DNA of 64,000 nucleotides from Streptomyces sp. Q6 (GTDB taxonomy: Bacteria; Actinomycetota; Actinomycetes; Streptomycetales; Streptomycetaceae), in assembly GCF_036967205.1 (NCBI RefSeq), contig NZ_CP146022.1, forward strand, positions 1,674,001 to 1,738,000. The letters run 5' to 3'. A program made the translations under genes and the position numbers. The notes under the pieces are model-generated. The model was not told where the DNA came from and made no database searches. It saw only the letters and a program-made list of their open reading frames with translations. Shown one piece after another: positions 22,823-26,129 of this stretch. The stretch's first letter is position 1, and each line of letters opens with the position of its first letter.

Positions 22823-24229
22823 GTGACCAGTCTCAGCGTCGAGATGCTGGCAGCGGACACCGTCGAGCCGATCACGTCCGCTGGCCATGCCCAGCTCGGG
22901 ATCGCCGTGCTCGCCGGCATCGCCGTCATCGTCCTGCTCATCACGAAGTTCAAGCTGCACGCCTTCCTGGCCCTGACCATCGGCTCGCTCGCGCTCGGCG
23001 CGTTCGCCGGAGCACCGCTCGACAAGGCCATCGCCAGCTTCACCGCGGGGCTCGGCTCCACGGTCGCCGGTGTCGGCGTACTGATCGCGCTCGGCGCGAT
23101 CCTCGGCAAGCTGCTCGCCGACTCCGGCGGCGCGGACCAGATCGTCGACACGATCCTCGCCAAGGCCGGCCGGTCCGGCGGGCGGGCCATGCCCTGGGTG
23201 ATGGTCCTGATCGCCGCCGTGATCGGTCTGCCGCTCTTCTTCGAGGTCGGCATCGTGCTGCTGATCCCGGTCGTCCTGATGGTCGCCAAGCGCGGCAACT
23301 ACTCGCTGATGCGCATCGGCATCCCGGCGCTCGCGGGCCTGTCGGTCATGCACGGTCTGATCCCGCCGCACCCCGGCCCGCTCGTCGCGATCGACGCGGT
23401 CGGCGCCAACCTGGGCATCACCCTCGCGCTCGGCATCCTCGTCGCCATCCCGACGGTGATCATCGCCGGTCCGGTGTTCTCCCGGTACGCCGCGAAGTGG
23501 GTCGACGTCCCGGTGCCGGAGAAGATGCTCCCGGCGCGCGCCTCCGAGGACCTGGTCAAGCGCCCCAGCTTCGGCGCCGCCCTGGCCACGATCCTGCTGC
23601 CGGTCGCCATGATGCTGTCCAAGGCCCTGGTCGACATCATCGTGGACAACCCGGAGCACACGGTCCAGCGCGTCTTCGACGTCGTCGGCTCCCCGCTGAT
23701 CGCGCTGCTCGCGGCCGTCATCCTCGGCATGTTCACGCTGGGCCGCGCCGCCGGCTTCAGCAAGGGCCGGCTCCAGTCCACCACCGAGAAGTCCCTCGCC
23801 CCGATCGCGGGCATCCTGCTCATCGTCGGCGCGGGCGGCGGCTTCAAGCAGACCCTGATCGACTCGGGCGTCGGCCAGATGGTCCTGGACATCTCCAAGG
23901 ACTGGTCGATCCCGGCCCTGCTGCTCGCCTGGCTGATCGCCGTCGTGATCCGCCTCGCCACCGGCTCGGCGACCGTCGCGACCGTCTCGGCCGCCGGTCT
24001 GGTCGCGCCCCTCGCGGCCGGTATGACCGACACGCACACGGCACTCCTCGTCCTCGCGATCGGCGCGGGCTCGCTGTTCTTCAGCCATGTCAACGACGCC
24101 GGGTTCTGGCTGGTCAAGGAGTACTTCGGGCTGAGCGTCGGCCAGACCCTGAAGACGTGGTCGATCATGGAGACGATCATCTCCGTGGTCGCGGGAGGCT
24201 TCGTCCTGCTCCTGTCGTTGGTGATCTAG
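22823..24229 (+). CDS. gntP: Gluconate:H+ symporter, GntP family
   Basis: This inner-membrane permease of 468 residues has about 12-14 membrane segments and belongs to the GntP/GntT family that imports gluconate with protons. It starts at GTG. The signatures PLFFEVGIVLLIPVV, HGLIPPHPGPL, SATVATVSAAGL and HVNDAGFWLVKEYF are all present. Its TAG stop is the last three bases of a CTAG that borders the palindromic element downstream. Confidence 0.96.
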   Translation: MTSLSVEMLAADTVEPITSAGHAQLGIAVLAGIAVIVLLITKFKLHAFLALTIGSLALGAFAGAPLDKAIASFTAGLGSTVAGVGVLIALGAILGKLLADSGGADQIVDTILAKAGRSGGRAMPWVMVLIAAVIGLPLFFEVGIVLLIPVVLMVAKRGNYSLMRIGIPALAGLSVMHGLIPPHPGPLVAIDAVGANLGITLALGILVAIPTVIIAGPVFSRYAAKWVDVPVPEKMLPARASEDLVKRPSFGAALATILLPVAMMLSKALVDIIVDNPEHTVQRVFDVVGSPLIALLAAVILGMFTLGRAAGFSKGRLQSTTEKSLAPIAGILLIVGAGGGFKQTLIDSGVGQMVLDISKDWSIPALLLAWLIAVVIRLATGSATVATVSAAGLVAPLAAGMTDTHTALLVLAIGAGSLFFSHVNDAGFWLVKEYFGLSVGQTLKTWSIMETIISVVAGGFVLLLSLVI

Positions 24230-24402
24230 GGCCTGTCTCCCAGATCCCTCCGTCCGCCCGAAGGGCGGGCCCTGCGGCGTCTGGTGCGTGCTCTCGGCGT
24301 GCCGGGTGCAGGGCCTCGTACTGGATGTACTTGGCCTTGGGCCCGGTGCGGCGAGAGCGCGTGCCAGGCGTCGCGGGGCAGGAGGGATCTGGGAGACAGG
24401 CC
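24230..24402 (+). mobile_element. 173-bp palindromic element (MITE-like) with three-way-junction fold
   Basis: The ends are a perfect 22-bp terminal inverted repeat (24230-24251 and 24381-24402) flanked on both sides by CTAG (24226-24229, 24403-24406). CTAG may be a target-site duplication, as in IS5-like insertions, or part of the repeat since it is itself palindromic. Inside, 24254-24259 pairs with 24263-24268 around a GAA loop, and 24269-24321 pairs with 24327-24379 as a long arm ending in a GTAC stem with a TGGAT loop. The two helices abut, leaving only GT and A unpaired at the junction. The long arm has ten differences from perfect pairing that are all G-U on the plus strand and four true mismatches. 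No transposase gene is present. It lies exactly between the gntP stop and its terminator. Confidence 0.75.
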
Positions 24403-24440
24403 CTAGCCGCGCGGCCGCTTCCGTAGAGGTCAAGAGAAGA

Positions 24441-24473
24441 TCAAGGGTCCGTGCACGGCGCACGGACCCTTGA
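24441..24473 (+). terminator. Hairpin terminator of the gntK-gntP operon
   Basis: A perfect 14-bp inverted repeat (24441-24454 with 24460-24473) with a 5-nt loop precedes the aldo/keto reductase start. It is separated from the gntP stop by the 173-bp element, so the element probably inserted between the gene and its terminator. Confidence 0.75.
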
Positions 24474-24508
24474 CTTCGAGAGCACTCCAACACGTTGACT
24501 GTGCGCCC

Positions 24509-25516
24509 ATGCGATACACCCAGCTCGGACGCACCGGACTCAAGGTCAGCCGACTCGTGCTCGGCACGATGAACTTCGGCGGCCAGACCGACGAGAAGAC
24601 CAGTCACACCCTCATGGACGCCGCGCTCGACGCGGGCGTCAACTTCTTCGACACCGCGAACATCTACGGCACGGCCGAGGAGCGGGGCGCCACGGAGCGC
24701 ATTCTCGGGTCCTGGTTCGCGCAGGGCGGCGACCGGCGCGACAAGGTCGTCCTCGCCACGAAGCTGTACGGGAACATGGAGAACGGCACAGCGCCCGGCT
24801 CGACGGGCTGGCCCAACCACACCCGGCTCAGCGCCGTCAACATCCGCCGCTCCGTGGACGCGTCGCTGCGGCGCCTCGCGACCGATCACATCGACATCTA
24901 CCAGTTCCACCACGTCGACCGGGACACCCCGTTCGACGAGATCTGGCAGGCGATGGACGTCCTGATCCAGCAGGGCAAGATCCTGTACGCGGGGTCCTCC
25001 AACTTCCCCGGCTACAAGATCGCCCAGGCCAACGAGGTGGCGAAGGCCCACGGCCGCGTCGGCCTGGTCAGCGAGCAGTGCCTCTACAACCTCTTCGAGC
25101 GGCGCGCCGAGATGGAGGTGCTCCCGGCCGCGCAGGAGTACGGCGTCGGCGTGATCCCCTGGTCTCCGCTGCACCAGGGCCTGCTCGGCGGTGCCCTGCG
25201 CAAGCAGCGCGAAGGCGTCGGCTCGCGCACCCTGATGGGCCGATCGGCCGACGGCACGGCCGACCCTCAGGTGCGGGCGAAGGTCGAGGCGTACGAGAAG
25301 GCCGTCGAGGAGCACGGGTTCGAGCCCGGCGAGGTGGCCCTGGCGTGGCTGCTCACCCGGCCCGGGGTGACCGGTCCGATCGTGGGTCCGCGGACGCGGG
25401 AGCAGCTGGACTCGGCGCTGCGGGCGCTCGAACTGGAGCTGCCCGAGAGCCTGTTGACGGCCCTGGACGAGATCTTCCCCGGACCGGGACCGTCGCCGGA
25501 GGCGTTCGCCTGGTGA
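24509..25516 (+). CDS. Aldo/keto reductase
   Basis: This is a 335-residue NADPH-dependent oxidoreductase of the AKR superfamily (TIM barrel), cytoplasmic. MRYTQLGRTGLKVSRLVLGTMNFGG is the usual start, so the ATG at 24509 is used. The catalytic tetrad is visible as D and Y in NFFDTANIYG, K in VLATKLYGN and H in YQFHHVDRDTP. The C-terminal cofactor site has GPIVGPRTREQLDSALRALE. The substrate is unknown; this subgroup includes YajO/Tas-like enzymes. Confidence 0.95.
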   Translation: MRYTQLGRTGLKVSRLVLGTMNFGGQTDEKTSHTLMDAALDAGVNFFDTANIYGTAEERGATERILGSWFAQGGDRRDKVVLATKLYGNMENGTAPGSTGWPNHTRLSAVNIRRSVDASLRRLATDHIDIYQFHHVDRDTPFDEIWQAMDVLIQQGKILYAGSSNFPGYKIAQANEVAKAHGRVGLVSEQCLYNLFERRAEMEVLPAAQEYGVGVIPWSPLHQGLLGGALRKQREGVGSRTLMGRSADGTADPQVRAKVEAYEKAVEEHGFEPGEVALAWLLTRPGVTGPIVGPRTREQLDSALRALELELPESLLTALDEIFPGPGPSPEAFAW

Positions 25517-25541
25517 CGTGCGGGCCGTCTGCGCTCCTACG

Positions 25542-26129
25542 TCACTGAAGCCATTCGCCGTGCTCGCGCTCGGCCCAGTCGCGCCGGACGAATCCGGTGC
25601 GCATGCCCGCGCGGGCCTCGGGGTCGCCGGCCGCCATGCCGATATGGCCGGCGATCACGATGCCGAGCGCGAGCGACAGCCAGTCGTGCACGAAGGTGCT
25701 GCCGGTGCGCCAGGCCAGCGGGGCGAGATGCGTGAACCACATCAGCAGGCCGGTGCCGAGCATGACGAGGACGGCGCCCGCGAGCCACGCGGCCCACAGT
25801 TTCTGCCCGGCGTTGAACTTGCCCGCGGTGCGCCCCGGACGCCGTCGCAGCGTCGCGCGCAGCCACGCCGTGTCGCGGGGCCCGAAGCGGTTGAGGCGGT
25901 GCAGGTCGGTGCGGAAGGCGCGGGAGGCGAGGCCCAGCAGGAACGGCGCGGGCAGCAGCAGTCCCGCCCACTCGTGGAGCCGGACGACGAGGTCGCGGCG
26001 GCCGACGAGTTCGGCGAGCTGGGGCAGGTACAGGCAGGCGGCGGTGGCGACGCAGACGCCCATGAGCGCGGCGGTCGTGAAATGGACCCAGCGCTCGGCG
26101 CGGGTGAACCGTTCAACTCGTGGGTTCAT
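25542..26129 (-). CDS. Cytochrome b561-type membrane protein
   Basis: This integral membrane protein of 195 residues has four membrane helices. Candidate haem ligands are His in WVHFTTAALM, RLHEWAGLLLP, FVHDWLSLALG and IAGHIGMAAGD, the pattern of formate-dehydrogenase-gamma or Ni-Fe-hydrogenase cytochrome b subunits. The longest frame starts at 26204, but the ATG at 26129 (MNPRVERFTRAERWVHFT) fits the family. It overlaps the molybdopterin oxidoreductase gene by 17 bp and probably passes electrons to or from it. A convergent aldo/keto reductase ends 26 bp away. Confidence 0.85.
   Translation of the reverse strand: MNPRVERFTRAERWVHFTTAALMGVCVATAACLYLPQLAELVGRRDLVVRLHEWAGLLLPAPFLLGLASRAFRTDLHRLNRFGPRDTAWLRATLRRRPGRTAGKFNAGQKLWAAWLAGAVLVMLGTGLLMWFTHLAPLAWRTGSTFVHDWLSLALGIVIAGHIGMAAGDPEARAGMRTGFVRRDWAEREHGEWLQ

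Follow-up and report, generated by a model that had tools for sequence, protein, structure and literature searches.

The palindromic element at the gntP stop codon of Streptomyces sp. Q6 is probably a non-autonomous Streptomyces MITE made up of a core and exchangeable ends, mobilized in trans, with a core that would be kept for the sake of its folded plus strand. The element was followed up in a window of 64,000 nucleotides (the whole stretch of DNA that was analyzed, to which all coordinates refer) and in copies collected from other genomes. Its core folds far better on one strand than on the other, is shared by copies whose ends differ, and lies mostly in one orientation relative to replication. 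For the form in which the folded strand acts, we lean toward RNA; single-stranded DNA is the less likely form and, judging from the sequences, would be an unlikely one.

The element at the gntP stop codon and its copies

Positions 24226 to 24406 read CTA, the 175-bp element (24229 to 24403), and TAG, and the TAG stop of gntP is formed by the target TA and the initial G of the element (Table 1). An earlier note on this DNA, made from the letters alone, had described CTAG on both sides, with the gntP stop as part of a three-way junction, and the sequence agrees. Refolding likewise returned the GAA-capped hairpin (24254 to 24268), the long arm with ten wobbles, each of them G·T when read on the plus strand and none A·C, and four mismatches (24297:24351, 24308:24340, 24316:24332, and 24317:24331). 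As the note had said, all but three junction bases are paired, the exceptions being 24252, 24253, and 24380. The terminal repeat is perfect, as claimed, but its length was given as 22 bp, whereas refolding gives 23 bp inside the duplicated TA; counting both CTAG, the terminal stem (P1) comprises 26 perfect pairs. In 7 of 101 cores, the closing C-G pair of the apical hairpin is replaced by G-C.

Table 1. Features at and around the element, in window coordinates
Feature	Position	Strand	Basis
gntP (GntP permease)	22823..24229	+	ORF; Pfam PF02447, 1.2e-140
Left duplicated target TA (site CTAG)	24227..24228		Sequence; CTA and TAG flanks in 91/149 family copies
Left terminal inverted repeat (TIR), 23 bp, end class A	24229..24251	+	Sequence, refolding, end classes
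6-bp hairpin, GAA loop	24254..24268	+	Refolding
Long quasi-palindromic arm, ten plus-strand G·U, zero A·C	24269..24379	+	Refolding
Conserved core, 102 nt, common to copies with differing terminal repeats	24272..24373	+	Copy comparison
Conserved apical GTAC-TGGAT-GTAC hairpin of the core	24318..24330	+	Copy comparison
Right TIR, 23 bp, perfect complement of the left	24381..24403	-	Sequence, refolding
Right duplicated target TA	24404..24405		Sequence
Terminator-like hairpin, 16 pairs, minus-strand T-run	24440..24474	-	Lies beyond the element

Folded as RNA, positions 24220 to 24410 had an MFE of -177.8 kcal/mol on the plus strand (z, -15.4) and -137.5 kcal/mol on the minus strand (z, -13.2), and on neither strand did any of 200 shuffles fold as well. 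No promoter-like site was found in 24100 to 24520 with a consensus of the E. coli type. The element sits between gntP and a strong terminator-like hairpin (24440 to 24474). Rfam 15 returned no match at E ≤ 1 for positions 23000 to 26000 of the window. Five related loci yielded two microRNA matches below the gathering threshold (39.9 bits against 97, E 1.5e-4; 27.2 bits against 80, E 0.43), which we read as hairpin likeness and not as microRNA identity. The family itself was found neither in Rfam, over the same window interval and five loci, nor as a published description among the titles and abstract openings that a literature search listed.

The first of two readings offered in the earlier note, a MITE, fits the element well. 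It is short and non-coding, with 23-bp TIRs and a duplicated TA on both sides of its 175 bp, and it is multicopy: among the best 40 of 99 first-look candidates scored in its own genome, at least eight are full or near-full copies. The same genome also carries shorter pieces of about 67 to 80 bp that resemble deletion forms. The other reading was a REP-like element that moves in hairpin form. REP/RAYT elements are multicopy intergenic palindromes, and membership would imply a hairpin without TIRs or target duplication, whereas this element has long TIRs, a TA duplication, and ends that resemble those of IS5 and IS630 DDE transposons; we therefore did not adopt it.

A search against Streptomyces genomes, which the note had suggested, gave matches to the window element in 77 of the 101 genomes sampled from the genus. 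When a related copy served as the query, the order yielded matches in 145 of 197 genomes (141 in the same genus, 1 in the same family, and 3 in the same order); of the four matches outside the genus, one had an E of 2.5e-9 and the other three (E 2e-4 to 9e-4) were close to the threshold. A stringently filtered covariance-model search, which scored 13 candidates in each genome, was positive in 5 of 296 genomes of the phylum, all of the same genus. Scanning named genomes for exact matches to the left arm of the core recovered at least 114 loci. Among the 80 matches listed, nearly all had Streptomyces titles, the rest being a few labeled “Actinobacteria bacterium” and one Kitasatospora. Plasmid records with matches numbered 32 (29 Streptomyces, 2 Embleya, and 1 Kitasatospora). 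The phages searched held no match to the element, and viral contigs gave five exact 18-base matches. Genomes G499 and G419 had 30 and 27 matches, respectively, counts in which one copy can match on both strands.

CTAG, the target implied by the gntP site, is the preferred insertion site of the family. In the 149 copies for which both ends could be placed by end class, with TA not required, TA stood on both sides in 104 and the site read CTA to the left and TAG to the right in 91. A stricter count that demanded TA at both ends found the longer motif in 89 of 103 copies. We also looked for empty sites at gntP in relatives, on the gene side only, with no locus aligned on both flanks: 20 of the 29 loci other than our own were readable, none had the element, and 14 ended in CTAG.

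A common core with differing ends

The 197 distinct copies that we extracted have in common a core of about 100 nt (GCGTCNGGTGCGTGCTCTCGGCGTGCCGG ... CTCGTACTGGACGTACTTGG ... CCGGTGCGGCGAGAGTGCGTGCCNGGCGTC) and vary in their ends. The first 18 end bases sort into ten classes, a number that depends on how we split them. The class was the same at both ends in 146 copies and different in 3; only one end could be classified in 24 copies, and neither end in another 24. Class G stands 10 to 14 of the 18 bases apart from each of the others, while the nine remaining classes differ from one another at 2 to 11 (D and F at only 2). By this comparison the nine resemble each other and may form one broad IS5-like kind, so it is class G that carries the argument for two transposase families.

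The three copies with mixed ends are of unequal weight. L238 (F/D) is hardly informative, given the similarity of D and F, but L201 (F/G) and L279 (B/C) look like two convincing chimeras. We propose that the core swaps ends through recombination between copies.

Several end classes resemble the ends of insertion sequences, as counted in mismatches over 20 bases at the left and right ends; most classes are without an assigned IS. Class G showed 2 + 2 mismatches to a 1,503-bp IS (L292) whose transposase matches NF033545 (1.3e-42), and copies of this class are IS630-linked MITEs in the sense of sharing a TIR with an IS630-family IS. Class C showed 0 + 1 mismatches to the 887-bp IS of L296 (NF033580, IS5 family) and 2 + 0 to the 889-bp L297, whose scanned frame had no Pfam match. 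Class A, to which the window copy belongs, was 2 + 4 mismatches from a 938-bp Pseudonocardia IS (L294) that is 98.5% identical to L293, and the two frames of L293 match NF033580. No autonomous partner of class A was seen in the element's own genome, where an IS5-family element (L301, L308) has ends 4 mismatches from class B. IS5 and IS630 belong to different DDE families (DDE_Tnp_1 and DDE_3). Pattern searches for autonomous partners returned mainly ends of the element. We postulate that an IS5 or IS630 transposase that recognizes a given pair of ends mobilizes the element in trans. Separately, HMM matches to IS5-family transposases numbered 78, many of them close to one end of the chromosome (G000:C1 below ~0.9 Mb) and on the second contig (G000:C2).

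A regular expression found a second GC-rich palindrome (TGGGGGT...GGGGGAGC) inside the core in 31 of the 197 copies, in the right arm of 25 and the left arm of 6. In the examples read, it lies ahead of GTGC, whichever the arm, and copies of several end classes have it; carriers include L048, L049, L056, L080, L087, L089, L125, L179, L182, L190, L270, and L277. This placement suggests a site-specific inserter of the REP-like sort. At L217:2106-3446, two class-F copies that are inverted relative to each other enclose an ORF-containing stretch of about 1 kb, an arrangement that we did not adopt as a composite transposon.

Strand-specific folding of the core

The plus strand folded better than the minus strand in all 101 deduplicated cores, with mean energies of -79.7 versus -50.5 kcal/mol as RNA and -40.4 versus -26.6 kcal/mol as DNA. 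The earlier note had drawn attention to plus-strand G·U pairs in a single copy, and the excess over A·C holds throughout the family. Over the 101 cores we counted 887 G·U, 28 A·C, and 268 other mismatches, a ratio of G·U to A·C inflated by fixed wobble columns and by retrieval through the left arm of the core. Columns with a Watson-Crick majority give the fairer figures of 223 G·U, 27 A·C, and 203 other mismatches. All of these are counts of sequences and not of independent events; copies were found by core likeness (114 loci by the exact left-arm match), which inflates the conservation of fixed wobbles, and the filter that removed 7 of 162 inner cores, on account of their length or because over 10 pairs were broken, leans toward pairing. 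The TIR stems had 81 G·U and 16 A·C, or 26 and 13 when positions 3 and 20 to 22 are left aside.

The copies do not differ at random where pairing is concerned. In 33 distinct cores, 96.7% of cells were paired and 13 pairs had two-sided changes, compared with 7.0 in shuffles, and none of 500 shuffles reached any of the measures. The signal was lost when partners were slid, a comparison in which the structure, drawn from the same consensus, is favored over the slides. Neither of the outcomes that the note had named against its reading, a lack of other copies or differences random to pairing and equally A·C and G·U, was found. Retention of the core is in our view best explained by activity of the plus strand in folded form, most likely as RNA in read-through transcripts. 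We speculate that this RNA works as a stable hairpin that an RNase III-type enzyme might cleave, and not as a 3′ untranslated region (UTR) functioning in the sense direction only; G·U pairs would preserve the RNA hairpin yet interrupt the DNA palindrome.

The spectrum of one-sided changes, read against the commonest pair and without a tree, bears on whether mutation could have produced this pattern. At paired columns, departures yielding G·U were C>T in 148 cases and A>G in 19, and those yielding A·C were G>A in 18 and T>C in 2; pair-breaking transversions (161) were about as many as C>T. Pairing and the G·U bias might then be by-products of strand-biased C-to-T deamination and template switching, with no selection on the fold. 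That C>T is the commonest one-sided departure agrees with such an origin, and so does L006:1466-1716, where one core arm has become perfectly complementary to the other over a greater length, the outcome that template switching in a palindrome should give; the same process could produce some of the two-sided changes. C deamination does not, however, give the excess of A>G over T>C at A-T pairs, C>T and T>C are alike in unpaired columns, and the plus strand is mostly the leading-strand template (see below), which is expected to be less single-stranded. We regard this origin as decidedly improbable, and the spectrum argues for selection on plus-strand pairing over C-deamination bias alone.

The core might instead be kept as a duplex-DNA binding site for the transposase or a host factor, without regard to folding. 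Both arms do carry GTGCGTGC and GGCGTC in one and the same direction, with direct GTGC repeats, but a variable helix (columns 35 to 42 with 65 to 72) keeps its pairing and not its sequence, and the core is missing from seven IS spans whose ends resemble those of the element (L292, L293, L294, L296, L297, L301, and L308). We consider a duplex binding site very unlikely.

Orientation, neighboring genes, and related systems

Of 183 copies, 135 have the plus strand, which folds better, as leading-strand template (binomial p 9e-11), where a plus strand that points to the origin, placed by dnaA, is taken to be that template. The p value is too small, since copies within a genome are related, and the tally is made without regard to gene strand. 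The majority lay in this orientation in 11 of 11 genomes of a first set (102/138 copies; 16 handles), which was chosen after the trend had been seen and includes genomes that showed it. In a second set (33/45 copies, 13 further genomes; 16 handles), the same orientation was the majority in 9 genomes and the minority in 4; this set was not blind, as some positions in some genomes were known beforehand. An earlier tally by contig centers had 96 of 137 copies in the leading-template orientation. For the dnaA-based set, G012, G074, and G424 (4 rows) were dropped and three G495 rows added. G007 and G506, with dnaA at the contig end, were treated as circularly cut, which changed G007 from 0/4 to 4/4 (one row was added later) and left G506 at 0/2; without both, the count is 130/176. 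At most the best 40 candidates per genome were scored. The count also excludes rows below ~60 bits, the second contig of G000, G064, which had no match, three genomes in which all rows were weak (G489, G442, and G444), and G479, whose rows were weak and whose dnaA is far from the contig center.

A transposase cannot easily choose an orientation, because the ends of the element are nearly symmetric. The simplest reading is loss of, or selection against, a strong hairpin on the lagging-strand template, and in our model copies with a strong plus-strand hairpin on the single-stranded lagging template would be those lost or selected against.

The same orientation could mean that the plus strand acts as folded single-stranded DNA in the manner of attC, with a recombinase or nuclease recognizing the fork-exposed hairpin and the leading-template orientation limiting its activity. 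According to a review (PMC8946536), attC sites are imperfect palindromes in which one strand is the functional fold, and in sedentary chromosomal integrons the leading-strand template carries most of their bottom strands. The plus strand of our element is better folded as DNA too, and the second palindrome, found within one arm, is REP-like. On the other hand, TIRs and a TA duplication resembling the ends of DDE transposons require no single-stranded DNA step, and they set the element apart from attC, to which the likeness is in strand use only, the favored strand being mostly the leading-strand template in both. That G·U is so strongly preferred to A·C also suits RNA better than DNA. We think an attC-like mode of action unlikely, and folded RNA is the form that we prefer.

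Gene neighbors were counted for 182 copies with usable flanks, with genes called by codon bias. The earlier note had proposed that the element supplies a structured 3′ UTR, but genes whose 3′ end faces the element were sense to its plus strand in 92 cases and antisense in 102, and a sense 3′ UTR role is unsupported because orientation to the neighboring 3′ end is random. Genes whose 5′ end faces it were more often antisense (52) than sense (26; p 0.004), an excess that may stem from replication orientation together with gene strand bias.

Gene 3′ ends face the element on 194 sides and 5′ ends on 78. This preference, together with the strong folding of both strands, could point to a bidirectional terminator or mRNA stabilizer useful to the host and spread by transposition. 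Yet the position at gene ends is explainable by the target, because TAG stops are CTAG sites: the stop codon is split at the insertion (TA plus the G of the element) in 79 of the 161 3′-facing genes with placed ends. No T-run, as found in an intrinsic terminator, follows the hairpin of the element in 24100 to 24520, and a bidirectional role would leave the conservation of the plus strand unexplained. Such a host function appears quite unlikely; conservation of the plus strand as folded RNA remains our preferred explanation.

Small non-coding repeats of other bacteria offer comparisons. RUP of Streptococcus pneumoniae is, according to PMC2229807, a 107-bp MITE linked to IS630-Spn1, with IS630-like TIRs and a TA-containing target, thought to be mobilized in trans; MITE transcripts are described there as highly base-paired. 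The Streptomyces family is like RUP in its TA-containing target and, for end class G, its IS630-like TIRs, and differs in having one core with several end classes that resemble both IS5 and IS630 ends, a strand-specific fold, and an orientation to replication. The same paper (PMC2229807) presents Correia/NEMIS as small non-coding repeats near genes, and NEMIS stem-loop transcripts as proposed RNase III substrates. Our element is similarly small, non-coding, and near genes, but it is GC-rich, has varied ends, and shows no sense bias at gene 3′ ends.

More tentatively, and as a possibility that we consider doubtful as a whole, the element may be a mobile nucleic acid, most likely RNA, with a structure specific to one strand, and a module of its own that swaps IS5/IS630-type ends and whose folded plus-strand activity is conserved in Streptomyces. 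To our knowledge, known MITEs take their ends from a single transposon. A folded core carrying ends of two transposase-family types would show that a small module can outlive its mobilizer. From its replication-oriented distribution one could read, across whole genomes and in a testable way, how fork polarity filters folding DNA. Present in most of the Streptomyces genomes sampled (77/101), the element bears on gene ends and on annotation in the main antibiotic producers.
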